Origin: Cordilura impudica
Lineage: Eukaryota > Arthropoda > Insecta > Diptera > Scathophagidae
DNA length: 64,000 bases
Assembly (NCBI GenBank): GCA_963682025.1
Contig: OY821521.1
Location: 49,564,807 to 49,628,806, forward strand
Direction: 5' to 3'
Within the stretch, counting starts at the first letter, position 1; every line of letters begins with the position of its first letter. Position numbers and translations under genes: made by a program. The notes below the pieces were generated by a model. That model had not been told where the DNA came from. It made no database searches and saw only the letters and a program-made list of their open reading frames with translations. This document shows positions 2,513 to 58,765 of the stretch, piece by piece.

Positions 2513-2640
2513 ACAGCAAGAACCAAGATAATACGTATAAACTCCCCAACAACAACAAAACGTTCTTCATAAATGGTGAGGAATTTGAAGATGTCTCCAA
2601 ACTCTGCTACTTAAGCGGATGGTTCTAGTAATTTTTTTTA
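2513..2640 (+). pseudogene. LINE reverse transcriptase fragment, 3' part
   Basis: Continues the RT interrupted at 1,845. Removing the hAT-like element and one copy of its 8-bp duplication restores an unbroken reading across the junction (GMGIN then TARTK). Downstream the expected INGEEFEDVSKLCYLSG thumb region appears in another frame, so the piece carries at least one frameshift. Similarity fades near 2,640. Confidence 0.75.
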
Positions 2641-2880
2641 ACGACCGAACCCCGCCTCACACTTACCCACACCATCCAACCGAGGGGGCATGCCTCCTCA
2701 ACGTATGGACCGCGTACACACCATGGTCCGAACCCTGGCGGATTCCAAGAGCTGGCAAGTAGATTGCGTGGTCATAAATCAGCTACAGACTATATCGCCA
2801 GCTGATATTAGGAACAGACAAACTTAAAAAACATAAAAAACAAAACATTAAAATTGAAATCAACTACATTATGAAATACA
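2641..2880. other. GC-richer patch, unassigned
   Basis: A short stretch clearly richer in C and G than its surroundings, with a look of eroded coding sequence or LINE 3' end, ending in an A-rich run near 2,826-2,860. No domain could be read from it. Confidence 0.3.
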
Positions 2881-4135
2881 TTTTAATCATGACAAATTCT
2901 GAGGAAAGGATAAGAATTAGCGTAATTAGTCCTAAAATAGCCCAAATGAAGCGGATTAAAATGTCTTGTGAATTGTGGATTGTGAAAACTCAAATTTGAT
3001 AAAAGAACCTCCGAGTCAACGTCACCATTCGCAAGGTTGAAAAAAAAGGTAACACCCAACATGATCCTCCTACTCTCAAATGTTGGAAGCCTGATAAGCT
3101 TTAGTCTATTAGTATATGATGGTAAGTCATCATAACTCGAATCTAAACCACGTAGACAGAATAGCAAAAACTTTCTCTGCACAGACTGCATTGGCATGAA
3201 CTTGATAATATAGATTCCATATTATTGATGAATATTCCAAAATTGGTCTTACAAGTGCTGTATAAAGCTGTTTAGTAACGTATGGTTCTGAAAAAACTCT
3301 TTAGCCCATCTTTTAGCGAAACCAAGAGTAGATCTTGTCTTATTAACAATCATACTAATATGACCAATGAAGTCAAGTTTCCTATCCATACGTACACCAA
3401 GATCCAGAAATGTTTGAACAGTATCCAATAATATTCCATTAATGCAATACTCGTTAGAAATTATCCCCTTTCTGTGAAATACTACATGTTTACATTTCTT
3501 AAGATTCAGTTCCATCAAGTTCACATTACACCATTCAACTAATAAATCAAGCGCACGCTAAAAGGTAATATGACCATTTATGTCATTGAAACTGTGAAAT
3601 AACTTAACACCATCTGCATACATAAGGATGTTGCAATTCAAAATTACAGTTGTAAGATCATTTAGGAATAGTAAAAACAAAAACGGACCCAAATGACTGC
3701 CTTGGGGAACGCCAGAAGTAACTCTTATAATTTTAGATTCAATATTGCGAATCTTGACCCTTTGGGATCTAAACGTAAGATACGATTCAATCCACAGAAC
3801 GTTTAAAGCAAAATGATTTACTTATCGCAGTATTTAGCCCCGTTATAGGCTCTTCTTGGCCAATATTAAGCATTATACCAAGAGTAGGTTGATATCGATC
3901 TTCAGGTAAGGATATTGGATCAATGCAATTCACTACAAAACTGCCAACATTATCCACAAATAATAAATCCAACATATTTTTGTTCATGTTCAAAACGCAA
4001 TTTTTCTGAAATACCCCCAAAACAGATATACTCTCAAGAAGTGTACCGTAAAAGCGAAATGTCGTAGATGCATCAAATCAGACGAATAATGCCATAATAC
4101 GTTAGGTTAATTGAAATAATCAAGTATGAGAAGTG
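2880..4135 (-). pseudogene. Jockey/CR1-type LINE fragment (endonuclease end joined to RT)
   Basis: Read on the minus strand, an endonuclease C-terminus comes first (about 4,135-3,820; QKNCVLNMNKNMLDLLFV then a Hp-x-LGI motif). Then come RT motifs SGVPQGSHLGPFLF (about 3,700), YADG in place of the catalytic YADD (about 3,625), and a thumb region with LNLKKCKHVVFHRK and LDLGVRMDRKLDFIGHIS (3,524-3,249), followed by the post-RT segment to 2,883. The N-terminal half of the RT is missing, so the endonuclease is fused to mid-RT by deletion. Jockey/CR1-like non-LTR elements have this EN-RT order. Stops, frameshifts and the D-to-G change in the active site make it non-functional. Confidence 0.85.
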
Positions 4136-9430: not shown

Positions 9431-9706
9431 TTCATCCAATTAATCTGAAACTTCGCCCATAGTATTTTTGTGACTATAGATTAATTTTGGGGTAGTCATG
9501 CACAGTCACACACAGTCACGGAGTGATTAAAAACCCATTTCCCCTTATCCGATCGATATGAAACTTGGTCGATAGACTTGCTGTAAAAAAATATTTACTT
9601 CGACATAGTCACGCACAGTCGCGCACAGTCACGGAGTGATTCACAACTCATATTCATAAGGAAAGAAAGAATTTTAATAAAAACTTTGTTTTTATGGGTT
9701 AGATTA
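9430..9706 (+). repeat. short copy of the 123-bp satellite-bearing repeat
   Basis: About two units of the AGTCACGCACAGTCACGGAG-type repeat (with CCGATCGAT...AAACTTGGTC) followed by a unique 3' segment with GGAAAGAAAGAATTTTAAT and TTTTATGGGTTAGATTA. The same 3' segment ends the long array at 20,690-21,706. Homology stops exactly at TTA 9,704-9,706, where the next element begins. Confidence 0.85.
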
Positions 9707-10464
9707 CACCAGGCAACAAGGCTTTGGACTGGAGCAACCAAATATATTTCCTAGGGTGGTTTGGTTGGCTCAATTCGAATCTGTAATAGGTTTTTCTCTA
9801 TCACGTCAGGTTTTCGAGATACAAAAAAATGTCTTTCTTCGATTTTTACATAAAAAATCAAGGAATTTTCAAAAGTGAATGGCGTTATTTGAACGTCGTT
9901 TGTATTTTGTTTGTTCGGTTTCACGTATTAGAGTCCAGCATGCTCTTGTCCCAAAAGCTTTGATAATTTCTTCAAATTTTCATTAAATCTTGGTGAGCAC
10001 GCTCCCGTGTTCGTCGCTCACCGCACCTCGGTTTTGTGGAAAAAAATCTAAATGCGAATGAAGAAAATGCATTTTGAGTAACATTCGTGCACCTTATTCG
10101 TGATAATTTTTCAATAAATCAGCAACAATTTGTCTGTAGTTTTCACTTTTATTGTTTCCAAGAAAACTGTCCACGATGCTCTTGAAAGATTTGTAGGCTG
10201 CATTTTCTTCTGCCTTCTTTGATTTAAGTCCAGAGCCTTGAGAAAATTCTTAGAAAGGGCCAATTTTATGTGTAGCGGCGGAAGAAGAACGTTATTTGGA
10301 TCAATTAATGGTTTATTTGAAATATTTTGTTTTCCTGGAGAATACTCAGTTCTTTTTGGCCTCTCTGTTCTGACGTAATGACATGTAGCGCGACTATCCA
10401 ATAGTCAAAGGAAACAACAATATTTTGTGAAACTTCCTTGCATACCAACCAACAAATCAATGAC

Positions 10465-10849
10465 CTGAAACAGATTAATTTACAGTTATTTACGATGGTC
10501 TATACTATACTAGCAGATTCCAGCGCTCGAAATTTGAGTGAAATTTCTAGGCGGCTTTATTTTTCAACTTAGCCAACTCATTAACAAACTCATTAACAAA
10601 TTTAATAAAACACACATAGCATATGTATAATTTTATATATGTGTTAGTGGCAACTTTAAATGCAGTTTATTCATAACAAAGATAAAAATTTAAAAATCTG
10701 TAAATCTGCAAAACGGCTAAAAAGAAATAACTTTCAAATAATATACGTTTGGTCAAAATCGGGACAAAACGGTAGAACAAAACATCGGTCACAAGAAATC
10801 GCCTAGCCTATTAATATTAGAGATAAACAAAGAAATTTAAATCACACAC
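10465..10849 (-). other. intron within copy A, with splice sites
   Basis: On the minus strand the donor is CTTAAG|GTGTGT at 10,850/10,849 and the acceptor is CTGTTTCAG|GTCATT at 10,465/10,464. Splicing joins CGDLK to VIDLL in phase 0, matching the continuous CGDLKVI string I know from relatives. A Helitron lies inside it. Confidence 0.7.
10510..10823 (-). mobile_element. non-autonomous Helitron (family H), inside the intron
   Basis: Minus-oriented: starts TCTCTAATATTAATAGGC and ends ...CTAG, with plus-strand A at 10,509 and T at 10,824. This is Helitron-like insertion between A and T without target duplication. It is 314 bp long, against about 376 bp for the fullest copies, and contains the family landmarks CATCGGTCACAAGAAATC and CAGCGCTCGAAATT. 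Confidence 0.88.
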
Positions 10850-12574
10850 CTTAAGGTCACCACAGATCTTCCATTTATGATCGTTGTATTTGAGTAATGT
10901 CAAAATTTCAGTCATTGATTCGTAATTTTCCTTTGTATTAATGGCATGAGCAATTGGTATGGATGGTTCTTCATTCCCATTATGCAAAAGAAGGGCCTTT
11001 GAACTATATTTAGAGCCATTAATAAATAATCTTCATTCATTTTTATCATATGGCTGGTTAATTTTTTTAAATAAACCATCAACATCAGTACAGTAAAGAA
11101 TAGAATGTTTCTTTTCAAAATATGCAGCCAATTCCAAGCTTCTATCTCTATAGATTGTAACTTTTGTCCCAACTGAAAGATGTTTCCACTGCTGCATGCG
11201 TGAAGCTAGAAATTCCGCATCTTGCTTCGTAAATGTAAATCCCAAATTAGATCATTCAGCTCAGCTTGAGTCACTAAATGGCGTTCATCATCAGCCTCAT
11301 ACAAACTACCACTGCTCGTAGCACTGGGCATGACTGGTAATGGATCATTTGGTGGACGTTGAACTGGTTTGGAAACCGATGGGACATTCGCGTAAGTAAT
11401 ATTTTTTCGATTTTTCATATTGAATCCAGTAACTTTTGTTAAACAGAAATTACAATCGGTTGGGTGCTTATTTGACTCTCTCAAAAGTACTGGAATTGAA
11501 AAATCGAAATAGATCTTCTTGAAATTTGACCACTTGTATAAAGCAGTTCTTGAAAACCAAAATAAATCAAATATGCATATTTTAATGATTCTGATATTGC
11601 ATATCCTTTTTTTCCAACCAAATATTCACCACACAAAAAGCAAAAATAGCTTGAAGCAGTAACACTCGATCTCCCTGACATGCTTAAACACTACTATTCG
11701 GAAGATTTTAAATGAATGTGGGCTTCTGTCAAATTAATAATTGTGAATTGTGACTGTTTAACAGTATTGCCAGCATGCGATAAAAAATGAACAAGACACG
11801 ATAGCCCAGATTCGAATTCAGCGCACCCAGATTAGTTAAAAAACATGCTTCGTTTCTGCAGTCAATATTTCTTTTTAAATTTGTAGACCAGTGTTACACT
11901 GTGGAACAAATTCAGGTTAGCAAAAGTTAGGTCGATTCTTAGAGTGAGGGGTGAAAATTGAGGCTAAATTAGAAGACCCGTATCGTGGCGTTTGTTTATG
12001 TTAGTTGGAATTTTTTTGTTAATCGACCTTCGAACTTTGCAGTCAAATGCCGATTTTCAGCATTTTGTTTATATGGTTTTTTGGCTATAACTCGTCGACT
12101 AATTGCTATTTTTTCAATCTGTAAAAGCCAAATTATTGCTAGAGACCTGTGCAACAATTACAATTTTTAAAAAAATTGATTTAGAAAATTTTTGTGGTGC
12201 TTATGAAGCAAAATGTTGGAAAAATTATTTTTTTCATGCTTTTTGAAAATATTTTCCATAAAACTAAGTCTTGTTTGCTTTCTGTTTGATCTATAATATG
12301 CTTCTCAGTTTCTTCAATAAATTTCATTTGAAAAGAAAACAATCATAATACAAAACTTGCGTATTCCAGCTTAATATTAATTTACTTCTCATTTTTTATG
12401 TACCAATTTTGTTCAGTGTTGGTTTTGAAGAAACATTGAAAAAGAAATTATAAAAATATGGAAAAAATATATTTTTTTAAATGTTAGTTATGAAAAGTTT
12501 TAAGTAAAAAAATTAATTTTATTATTTTTTATAAAAATAAAAAATCTTATTTTCGATCTTTATCAATTTAATGA

Positions 12575-13288
12575 TTGAGTTTGAAATTGTTCAGGCTCAA
12601 GATCAAATGTTTTTACTTCAAATAAAGCAAAAGCATTAGCACATTTGTTTCAAAAATTGATCTATGTATATTCTGCATGACAGATTATACAGCTGTTTCG
12701 GGAAGAGTCACCAACCCTCATCAGTAACCAAAAGCAGTAGATAGTTTGTTTGGTAAAAAGTTAAATTCATATATATTTGCTGAAAACAACCAAATGAGAA
12801 TTCAAGCAAAAGTTATACTATTTAAGCCTCTTCCAATATAACAAACTAAAAATAGAACAACTTTGAAACAAATATGATTGTATACGAGTACACAGTAGTA
12901 TGCAGTAGTATGCAATGTATACAAATATGATTGTATACGAGTACACAGTAGTATGCAGTAGTATGTAATGTGTACTCGTATACAATCATATTTGTTTCAA
13001 AGTTGTTCTATTTTTAGTTTGTTATATTGGAAGAGGCTTAAATAGTATAACTTTTGCTTGAATTCTCATTTGGTTGTTTTCAGCAAATATATATGAATTT
13101 AACTTTTTACCAAACAAACTATCTACTGCTTTTGGTTACTGATGAGGGTTGGTGACTCTTCCCGAAACAGCTGTATAACCTGTCATGCAGAATATACATA
13201 GATCAATTTTTGAAACAAATGTGCTAATGCTTTTGCTTTATTTGAAGTAAAAACATTTGATCTTGAGCCTGATCAATTTCAAACTCAA
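12575..13288. repeat. nearly perfect long palindrome inside element B
   Basis: Two inverted arms of about 320 bp (left 12,575-12,894; right from about 12,966 to 13,288). By eye they differ at only about two sites (GTTCAGG/GATCAGG and CAGATT/CAGGTT). The apex holds a direct duplication of about 52 bp containing GTATACGAGTACACAGTAG. No protein is encoded. A transcript would form a long hairpin. Confidence 0.9.
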
Positions 13289-13309
13289 AAAAATTAAATA
13301 AATTAAATT

Positions 13310-14486
13310 AATGATTTGGCCAGTTGCCGTTTAGCAGGCGGCTGTGATCAACATCACTGCTCTCTCTAATATCTTGGTCATCGTCATCATCATCAGAAAG
13401 GTCGATAATTTCGTCCAACAGATATTCTGGAATTTCATCTATGTGTTCCCCTTCTTCCTCTTTTTCCTCGTCTTCCTCTTCTTCAAAGGTGTTTTTATAC
13501 CACCAACAAATTTCAGCGAGTATTGCATCTGGAGATTTCTTTCCTCTGTACTTGAAACGAAAATAGTTTTCCATCGTTAACATGTTTAAATTGTGCACTC
13601 TGACAAAGATATTAGAAAAATTTAGGAATTCGAAATTTTCACTAGTGTCAGTGCTATACGCAATCGGAACTGAAGGCATTCTATTTGTCTTGTGCAAAAG
13701 CACAACTTTTAAGCTGATTAGTGAACTATCGATGAATAAACGCCAATCATCTTTTTTATAGGTTAACCCTATCGTCTCCATTAACTTTTCAATATCGTGG
13801 CAATAAGCGAAATTTTTTGCATCATTCACATTGAAGAACTTTTCTAACTCTTTTTGGCGTTTTCGATATGCTGTTACTTTGGTACCTTTCGCCAGCAAAT
13901 TATATCCTTTCAAAAATGAAGCCAGTAGTTCTGATTTTTTCTGAGTCAAACACAAATTTGCAATAATTCCATCCAATTGGTTTTGTGTGACTAGGATTGT
14001 GTCCTTGATGTTTCATAGAATGTACCTTCACCAGGGTCGTATTCTGAGATGGATGTAGCAGCGGCGGTTGTAGTACTGATATCTGTTTGAAGATCAATAC
14101 TTCGGTATGTTGGTACTGGAACGAATTCTGAGTGCGGTAATGGTAAGTTTTATTCTTTGCTTTCCTTCTATTCAAAGTTTTATGGTAGTTGATACATCCA
14201 TAGCAATTTTCTTCTTGATGCGGGCTGTTGTCTAACCACATCATTGGTATACCAAAAGGCATAGCCTTCTTCTTTTCACTTTTTCATTGCATAAGAGTTG
14301 AAAAGCAATTAAAGCAAACTTTTTTAAGGGCATAATTTACGTCAGTGATAAACTCTTAAGAGAAATATTGTTTATAGGCTTCCAAAAAAAAAAAACAATC
14401 ACTCGCATTGCCACATTTTTCATCGCTTGCTATGAAACGTCCACAAACATTACAATAATGGTCCATTTTACATTTTGGTTCCGACA
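13310..14486 (-). pseudogene. putative transposase of the same family, copy B, with acidic tail
   Basis: Starts at an ATG at 14,484-14,486 (MSEPKCKMDHYCNVCGRFI). It continues through two stops and a frameshift to MPFGIPMMWLDNSPHQEENC with a second Cys pair (CYGC), then shifts frame near 14,005. From there a 222-residue open frame begins (13,976), including ILVTQ..LDGI, LTQKKSELLASFLKGY, GTKVTAYRKRQKEL, DWRLFIDSSLISLKVVLLH and VPIAYSTDTSENFEFL. The central CGDLK/CCFLC region and the HIKLGL region are absent. Instead there is an unfamiliar C-terminus with an Asp/Glu-rich tract (EEEEDEEKEEEGE; LSDDDDDDQD). It looks like an internally deleted element whose 3' end differs from copy A. Confidence 0.7.
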
Positions 14487-15374
14487 TTTTTAATACAATG
14501 TTTTTTTTTTTTTGTTAATTTTATAAAACCGATGCACTTAACTTAAATCACTCACAAAATGAAATAAGTTCCAAAATAATTAATAGCGAATTTTATCACG
14601 ACCGAGCGAAAATTAAAAGACATCAGCTTCGGCTGATTTTCGAGTCTTAACTGATTCTTCATTTTTGAGATTAGTTTGCTTGTACGAAATAAAAAAAAAT
14701 CGGTACCTGTGCGGTGGTTGAAAACATAAAAGTTGTTTTACTAATTCCTAATTCTTGGAACTTCCCTTTTTAATTACTTCTACCTAAATTGCTATTTATT
14801 TAATGGTTTTGGGATTTTTAACGCAAATTATCGACTAAGGCCATTTTCTTTTCAAATGAAATTTATTGAAGAAACTGAGAAACATATTATAGATCAAACA
14901 GAAAGCAAAAAAACTTAGTTTTGTGGAAAATATTTTCAAAAAGCATGAAAAAAAATAATTTTTCCAACATTTTGCTTCATAAGCACCACAAAAATTTTCT
15001 AAATCAATTTTTTTAATTCCAATTGTTGCACGCACAGGTCTGTAGCAATAATTTGGATTTCACAGATTGAAAAAATTTCAATTAGTCGACGAGTTATAGC
15101 CAAAAAACCATATAAACAATATGCTGAAAATGGCATGACTGCAAAGTTCGAAGGTCGATTAAAAAAAATTCGAACTAACATAAACAAACGCCACGATACG
15201 GGTCTTCTAATTTAGCCTCTATTTTCACCCCTCACTCTCAGAATCGACCTAACTTTTGTTAACCTGAATTTGTTCCATAGTGTTATTAGAGACATGTGTT
15301 TTGAATTTAAACAGTTAGCTGTCAATTTCACATTAAAATTTTCATAAAGCCGAAAGTGGGATAAAGCGAATAGG

Positions 15375-16150
15375 GTTGATTTTAATGCGTTGAAGACTCA
15401 ATGTTGTATGTTGACCCATAGGGCCATGGATTCAACAATGTCATCTGCATATATGTGTGGTATAGCTATTGAGGAGTCGGATACTCTTGATGTTCTAGGC
15501 ATGAGAATTCAATGTGATGTTCGTTGGAACGAGCATGCTTTTCAAATGTCGAAAGCAGCATTCAAGTGTCTTGGTTTTCTAAAACGGTGCAAAAATTACT
15601 TCACTCCCTCTGATCTCCTTAAAGTTTGTACCACTTACATCCGACCGAAAATGGAATACAACTCCCATATATGGGCAGGAGCTTCAAAGTCTATTTTGGA
15701 GCTACTGGGTTGTGCAAAGGAGGGCGTTGACAGTAGGGTATCCAACTCTATTGACTCATTGGAACATCATCGGAATGTGGGTTGTGTATCACTGTACTAT
15801 AGATACTACCATGGGAAATGTTCTTCTGAGTTTTACAAACTTATTCCAAGTGCCCGAGTTTCGGTTCGCTCTACCCGCTTCTCTAGTAGATCACAGCCGT
15901 TTGTAGTCTATTGTCCAGTTGACCGCTCAACGCATTACAGAGAGAATAAGTTTATCAGTAGAACTAGCTGTATGTGGAATAAATTCCCCGCAGTGGTCTT
16001 TCCTGACAGTCATAATCTAATAAAATTTAAGTCAGATATCCACAAACACTAGTCCCTCTTTCCTCCTTCCCATAACCTGTTTTCCTGAGATCAACACAAT
16101 GCACTGCATCTGTAGGGGGCATCTCCTGAGTGTTGGTTAATAAAAAAAAA
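15375..16150 (+). pseudogene. 5'-truncated LINE, RT C-terminal end plus tail
   Basis: An open frame of 220 codons (15,390-16,052; readable from about 15,375 as VDFNALKTQ) matches the end of a Jockey-group RT ORF: LDVLGMRIQCDVRWNEHAF, SKAAFKCLGFLKRCKNYFT, YIRPKMEYNSHIWAG, and a C-terminal WNKFP..VFPDSHNLIKFKSDI. A plausible 3' UTR of about 90 bp and an A-tract at 16,141-16,150 follow. Reverse transcription started at the RNA 3' end normally yields such 5'-truncated copies. The frame is unusually intact, so the insertion is fairly recent, but catalytic RT motifs are missing. Confidence 0.85.
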
Positions 16151-57735: not shown

Positions 57736-58254
57736 TTACAACTATAACAATTGAAATTAATAAAAATATAATTGTTAAATTTTATATGATAAAATATTAA
57801 AACAAAATAAATATAATTGTTTGAAAGTTATAAAAAAATATCTAAAAAAATTAATTGTATTAAAAACACGCCATAAATTTAAATTAAAATAATTTGTAGT
57901 TTATAATAGTGATTGAAATGGTTGGAATATAATTTTCACAAGGTTCCATTCCAATTAATATAACCAGTAGTAATAAAATTAATGATTTTATGGCAATTTT
58001 AAATGAAATTTCCGTGTTAGCAAACTAGAGATTTTAAAATTCTATTTAAAATAATGAAAATCTGTAAGTTTTCTTTTATGGGCCACGGAGGCAAAACGGA
58101 GTCAAACTGTAGCATTTTTGGTACAACTAACTCTGATGGTGCCGTATTTTTTTTTTGGTTTTGAAAATTTGTAGAAGTGCATTAAAATCGGTTAATGAGA
58201 ATTATGTATAGAATTATGTATAGAAATAGTCGTACAGTGCATACTCTTTCTCCA
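57736..58254. other. AT-rich sequence, nothing recognised
   Basis: AT-rich between the previous element and the coding relic at 58,255. No domain or repeat seen. Confidence 0.4.
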
Positions 58255-58752
58255 ATAAACATTGTGAAAAATTGTCATCATTCAATAGCTTCCTGATCTG
58301 AGGGCCAACAAATATGCCTTCTTTGATTTTAGCATATGAAATTTTAGGGAAAACCGCTAACAAATATTTAAATGCTGCACCATCAGAGTCATTGATTCGT
58401 AATTTTCCTTTGTATTAATGGCATGAGCAATTGGTATGGATGGTTTTTCATTCCCAATATTCAAAAGAAGAGCCTGTAAACCGTACTTAGAGCCATCAAT
58501 AAATAATTTCAATTCAGTTTTATCATATGGCTGGTTCATTTTTTGAAATAAACCATCAACATCAGTACAGTATGGAATAGAGTGTTTCTTTTCAAAATAT
58601 GCAGCCAATTCCAAGCTTCTATCTCTATAGATTGTTACTTTTGTCCCAACTACAAAATGTTTCCACTGCTGCATGCGTGAAGCTAGTAATTCTGCGTCTT
58701 GCTTCGTTAAATGTAAATCCCGAATTAGATCAATCAGCTTAGCTTGAGTCAC
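58255..58752 (-). pseudogene. third copy of the CAC/TTA-element protein family, internally deleted
   Basis: Minus-strand frame of 131 codons: TQAKLIDLIRDLHLTKQDAE, LLASRMQQWKHF, GTKVTIYRDRSLELAAYF, TELKLFIDGSKYGLQALLL and IPIAHAINTKENYESMT, nearly the wording of copy A (9,890-11,681). It then jumps in another frame to DGAAFKYL, FPKISYAKIKEGIFVGPQIR and KLLNDDNFSQ, which lie well downstream in full-length relatives. So a deletion removed the CGDLK to HIKLGL region. The N-terminus ends at GGCGTT, just before a CACTATG terminus-like string. Confidence 0.85.
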
Positions 58753-58765
58753 TAAATGGCGTTAC

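Follow-up and report, generated by a model that had tools for sequence, protein, structure and literature searches.

Two adjoining CAC-ended elements in the fly Cordilura impudica as Chapaev3-type DNA transposons of different families

Can two adjoining elements that start with CAC and finish with GTG be the mobile elements of the uncharacterized arthropod protein that both of them carry and, if so, to which type of transposon do they belong? The question arises from a stretch of 64,000 nucleotides (the window) of contig OY821521.1 from the dipteran Cordilura impudica, in which a first-pass annotation, made from the letters alone, had delimited two such elements, A and B, separated by a TTA. 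Our results indicate that they are, almost certainly, two cut-and-paste DNA transposons of the Chapaev3 type, from different families and lying side by side, the later one having taken the TTA of the earlier one, in either order. A and B are new representatives of an already known type of transposon.

Ends, target duplications and empty sites

The CAC and GTG bounds of both elements, and the three TTA that go with them, are exactly where they had been placed. The outer target-site copy to the left of A is the TTA at 9,704–9,706, preceded by an A and in the same register as in other copies of the A family. Element A (9,707–11,893; 2,187 bp, with its gene on the minus strand) extends from the CAC at 9,707 to the GTG ending at 11,893, and these ends are as in the family copies. 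The TTA at 11,894–11,896 is common to both elements, as the right copy for A and the left copy for B. Element B (11,897–15,282), of a family other than that of A, internally deleted and also with its gene on the minus strand, begins with the CAC at 11,897, ends with GTG at 15,282 and is followed by the outer TTA at 15,283–15,285, the next base being T. Brought together, the outer flanks of the pair read A-TTA-T.

The host genome (1.486 Gb in 855 contigs) yielded at least 162 matches in a protein search for the B family (with scores for 150 of its 13,275 first-look candidates) and at least 150 for the A family, searched with a 72-residue piece (150 of 6,486 candidates scored). From these, the B sample comprised 30 copies, 20 of them long loci and 10 recovered as end pairs; 17 were two-ended, and the other 13 lacked one or both ends in the stretch fetched. 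The A sample comprised 20 loci including the window itself, and seven of the 19 others were two-ended. Copy starts were shifted to a CAC lying within 2–3 bp, if there was one. Left CAC and right GTG were found, respectively, in 17/17 and 15/17 two-ended copies of the B family, and in 6/7 and 5/7 of the A family. The 3 bp at either side were identical in 10/17 B copies and 6/7 A copies, 14 of these 16 triplets being TWA; the A-family triplets were TTA (four copies), TAA and ATA, and the right end is foreign in L052, the single A-family failure. An A preceded the triplet in all 24 two-ended copies (B 17/17, A 7/7), and the base after it was T in 19 (B 14/17, A 5/7), versus always in the Chapaev3 paper. 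For the B family, the agreement of the triplets exceeds chance (binomial 0.008), and shifting the comparison outward by 1 to 5 bases left 0/17 agreements at each step.

The length of the duplication bears on the main competing explanation, by which A and B would belong to some other CAC-ended superfamily of the clade (CACTA/EnSpm, the Chapaev elements with 4-bp duplications, or Transib) or to an undescribed lineage. Transib duplicates 5 bp of its target and the P element 8 bp. None of the 24 two-ended copies (17 B and 7 A) had flanks identical at 4 or 5 bp, which argues against the first group of Chapaev and against Transib, and the 8-bp duplication of the P element was likewise not found among the copies. 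EnSpm also combines CAC..GTG ends with 3-bp duplications, as given in PMC12730594; a TWA set between A and T, on the other hand, is the signature reported for Chapaev3.

Direct evidence of insertion came from L013, a copy of the B family that sits in a dispersed repeat also occurring without the element, such that 11 places in the fetched DNA span its joined flanks. The six of these 11 that were listed (five in the window and one in L019) have a single triplet each (TAA in four, AAA and CAA), showing insertion with a 3-bp duplication. The repeat hit by L013, the source of these empty sites, is a copy of the family seen at 10,510–10,822 of the window. Only one more spanning match, a weak one (L024, 64%), was obtained with 14 joined-flank queries, and no empty site for the joint A and B site was spanned in the fetched DNA. 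The checks proposed in the first-pass annotation thus found CAC/GTG ends and 3-bp duplications in copies of the host fly, together with empty sites for one B-family copy, and A and B behave as elements of the transposase's own, as had been supposed.

The named relatives of the A and B proteins are mostly labelled uncharacterized or hypothetical arthropod proteins, as might be expected of a conserved host gene family, or of a domesticated transposase, that merely adjoined repeats. We consider this scarcely credible: the matches number at least 150 per family and are spread over large contigs, the copies examined have their own ends and target duplications, many of them bear stops or deletions, and the common ends and the empty sites already tell against it for these two families.

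The transposase and its relatives

Protein searches and tblastn confirmed that the minus-strand proteins of A and B are genuine members of one family. D263, D317, E518 and E521 (numbering of family member P0045) are present in 83/83 members, as are C337/C340, H391 and H499/H504, and L390 in 82/83; in the window's own copies, C(2)C, LH and H(4)H have been lost from B by deletion and are partly damaged in A. The catalytic residues are predicted to be D263, D317 and E518, the last of them as the probable catalytic Glu. The fold predicted for P0045 matches RAG1 and other DDE enzymes, and is of the RNase-H/RAG1 type; the structure prediction suggested in the first-pass annotation therefore returned a RAG1-type match, and its proposal of a DDE transposase gains support both from this model and from the retention of D, D and E in 83/83 members. 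The most similar named proteins are tephritid, with 91% identity over 36% of the query in Rhagoletis zephyria and 83% over 31% in Eurosta solidaginis. An A-family match in the host (G000:C5:186896361-186896561) lies within an open frame of 1,743 amino acids, which may represent a fusion or else an array of repeats.

Chapaev3 is treated in PMC12730594 as a sublineage of Chapaev within the CACTA-Mirage-Chapaev-Transib clade and, as outlined in PMC4079192, is characterised by CAC/GTG ends, empty sites, a TWA duplicated between A and T, and the motifs C(2)C, LH and H(4)H. Compared by published features, the A and B families are like the Chapaev3 elements Garfield, Merrow and Conan in their CAC/GTG ends, A-TWA-T targets, C(2)C/LH/H(4)H motifs and transposases of about 550 amino acids. 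Garfield and Merrow have two exons, and the gene is likewise in two parts here, with the presumed intron following FEIR in B and, in A, the DLK that holds the second Asp. Garfield_BM, which according to PMC4079192 encodes a 556-residue transposase, measures 2,289 bp, versus about 2.1 kb for A, whereas B differs from Garfield, Merrow and Conan in its size of about 3.3 kb and its inverted repeats of about 465 bp. Transib, ProtoRAG and RAG1 differ, given 13% identity to RAG1 and the 3-bp duplication found here. Chapaev3 is also recorded from another higher fly, the blowfly Calliphora vicina, for which PMC3630058 gives fragment counts and lengths of Chapaev3-1_CV and Chapaev3-2_CV.

The motifs C(2)C and H(3-4)H are common to the whole clade, as stated in PMC12730594, and would also suit another superfamily. 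Nevertheless, in protein length and in its motifs (C(2)C, LH, H(4)H) the family resembles Garfield_BM, and Chapaev, Chapaev3, TransibSU and RAG1 are reported to possess a Chapa-type N-terminus. Together with the target sites, this leaves assignment to another superfamily highly improbable. The suggestion of a CACTA-Mirage-Chapaev or Chapaev3-like element is thus supported by the agreement with published Chapaev3 features, and the alternative of an undescribed lineage is not needed.

Structure and decay of the two elements

Element A has short inverted repeats that pair imperfectly (CACCAGGCAACAA / CACTGGTCTACAA), and in an inverted-repeat test 201 of 2,000 random end pairs score equally well. 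From the window, the ends of A would be a fair guess, and we accept them because they are confirmed by copies at other loci: among the 19 other A-family loci, the left limit of the match to A is 9,703 (ATTA, then CAC) in ten, with one each at 9,702 and 9,699, and the right limit is 11,894–11,896 in nine, the remainder stopping elsewhere on that side. The seven two-ended copies measure 1,981–2,090 bp, versus 2,187 bp for A.

The gene of A, delimited by tblastn with P0100, occupies about 11,681 to 9,890 of the minus strand. Its N-terminal region with Cys pairs, ZAD/Chapa-like, is at 11,221–11,681 (P0100 residues 1–43 and 62–191), followed by the region of the first Asp at 10,847–11,233 (187–315). 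The motif that the first-pass annotation had noticed as DWRLFIDSS/LFINGS corresponds to the first catalytic Asp, which is intact in B; in A it is replaced by Asn, with a stop just ahead, and the second Asp (CGDLK) is kept. By eye and by tblastn, the coding region appears to be broken by an intron after this DLK. The second exon starts at 10,198–10,467 (VIDLLVGMQ..CCFL..LPPLHIKL; P0100 314–404, splice sites placed by eye), a stop replacing the second Cys in C(2)C, and the C-terminal piece (H(4)H, SDEHG; P0100 440–552), at 9,890–10,213, carries stops and a frameshift. A was probably autonomous formerly, and is now dead.

The apparent intron of A contains a 313-bp repeat (10,510–10,822) that matches elsewhere in the window and is missing at this position from those other A-family loci that match on both sides, these jumping from about 10,509 to 10,823. 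Whole or in part, this repeat recurs nine times in the window (near 16.7, 30.8, 35.6, 41.3, 41.7, 54.4 and 55.8 kb, with pieces at 37.5 and 39.1 kb) and belongs to a dispersed family of up to about 390 bp. The window also contains a third, truncated A-family fragment (58,229–58,763), 377 bp of which are 92% identical to A; directly after it, at 58,765, there is a TTA and then a Chapaev3-like end (CACTATGCGACATATTCAG), for which no partner was recognised.

The inverted repeats of B, estimated beforehand at about 450 bp, are indeed present and measure about 465 bp each (left, 11,897–12,362, plus strand; right, about 14,821–15,282, minus strand); they are 83–97% complementary, in five pieces. Compared with the full copy L015, blocks of B show 95%, 96% and 92% identity, and four further copies are similar. 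On the minus strand, the N-terminal Cys-pair (ZAD/Chapa-like) domain lies at 14,143–14,487, with a broken frame (from the list of open reading frames and tblastn with P0045 1–113, 88%), and the part with LTQ..ELLAS, GTKVTAYR and DWRLFIDSS at 13,623–14,012 (P0045 171–298, 92%). A C-terminal coding tail (RYRGKKSPDAILAEICWWYK-type, plus an acidic tail) occupies 13,308–13,622, as deduced from its open reading frame and from the second-exon frames of L013, L015 and L016; frames also place the intron after FEIR. The junction at 13,629–13,643 is that of a deletion which, judged against L015, took away about 730 bp and with them the second Asp, the Glu and the motifs C(2)C, LH and H(4)H. A foldback insertion of about 760 bp (about 12,525–13,287), unrelated to B, is nested in it; its 323-bp arms are 99% complementary and separated by 68 bp, and it had no match in loci L011–L030.

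The same exact deletion junction was found in L002, one of 29 other loci checked, which lacks the foldback. As the flanking DNA of L002 differs from that of B, the deleted form has probably transposed one or more times since losing this part, needing an enzyme supplied in trans; B, without most of the catalytic core, or its parent, was presumably mobilised by the enzyme of complete relatives. In the proposed mechanism, a transposase dimer would bind the CAC ends, probably aided in dimerisation or DNA binding by the ZAD-like zinc domain at its N-terminus, would cut by means of metal ions coordinated by D263, D317 and E518, and would attach the ends to A-TWA-T at points separated by 3 bp.

Several observations weigh against parts of this interpretation. 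Flanks of 3 bp were not identical in 7/17 B copies and 1/7 A copies, the seven B failures being off by one letter in six cases and by two in the other. Left and right flanks paired across different B copies agreed in 77 of 272 pairs, so that chance agreement is high and part of the agreement in the B family arises because targets are alike. In the A family, two of seven copies agree over 6 bp, the triplet being repeated, and the shifted control is not clean (3/7 at offset 3, 1/7 at offset 4); with so few copies, the 3-bp length for A rests on few cases. As for the fold, Foldseek alone returned no PDB match at E ≤0.001, its best being the P element, and the modelled protein was P0045, a 93% relative, rather than the broken genes of the window. 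Finally, only L002 shares the exact junction of B, with L003–L007 crossing the site with other breakpoints, and the right flank of L002 is AAT, which does not repeat the TAA on its left.

Around the pair, two 105-bp units, 73% alike, adjoin the left end of A (9,434–9,651), and sequence from this part also matches L069 repeatedly in succession (2,548–3,207). To the right of B, an open frame of 234 amino acids (15,348–16,052, plus strand) resembles by eye the end of a long interspersed nuclear element (LINE) reverse transcriptase and had no Pfam match. The G+C content is very low, with strong strand skews, at 22–30 kb and 46–52 kb (minimum of 12%, at 50–52 kb).

The N-terminal zinc domain and wider significance

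The N-terminal profile of the family matched the N-terminal region of RAG1 with an E value of 0.012, in two stretches that are each weak alone, and RAG1_imp_bd was matched in 3/83 members (best, 0.0064). Weak matches appeared in every pairing of the Chapaev3 N-terminus, the ZAD domain (Pfam zf-AD) and the RAG1 N-terminal region (PDB 21wb). Tentatively, and with the odds slightly against it, the zinc domain of Chapaev3, the ZAD found in C2H2 transcription factors of insects and the N-terminal, importin-binding region of RAG1 may be one domain family. If so, the insect ZAD and the non-core region of RAG1 would go back to the same transposon-borne module, whichever the direction of transfer.

The find itself is ordinary, because Chapaev is among the superfamilies listed for every arthropod species of the survey in PMC6327564. 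It gives, however, proteins hitherto called uncharacterized an identity based on mobility, through their ends, target duplications and empty sites, and such proteins could be masked as Chapaev3 transposases during gene annotation. The ZAD-like N-terminus suggests a link between transposases and a family of insect transcription factors. RAG1 is the enzyme by which our antibody genes are assembled, and the Chapaev3 enzyme is predicted to be alike in outline; given this predicted likeness, the elements would be useful as outgroups in studying how V(D)J recombination arose.
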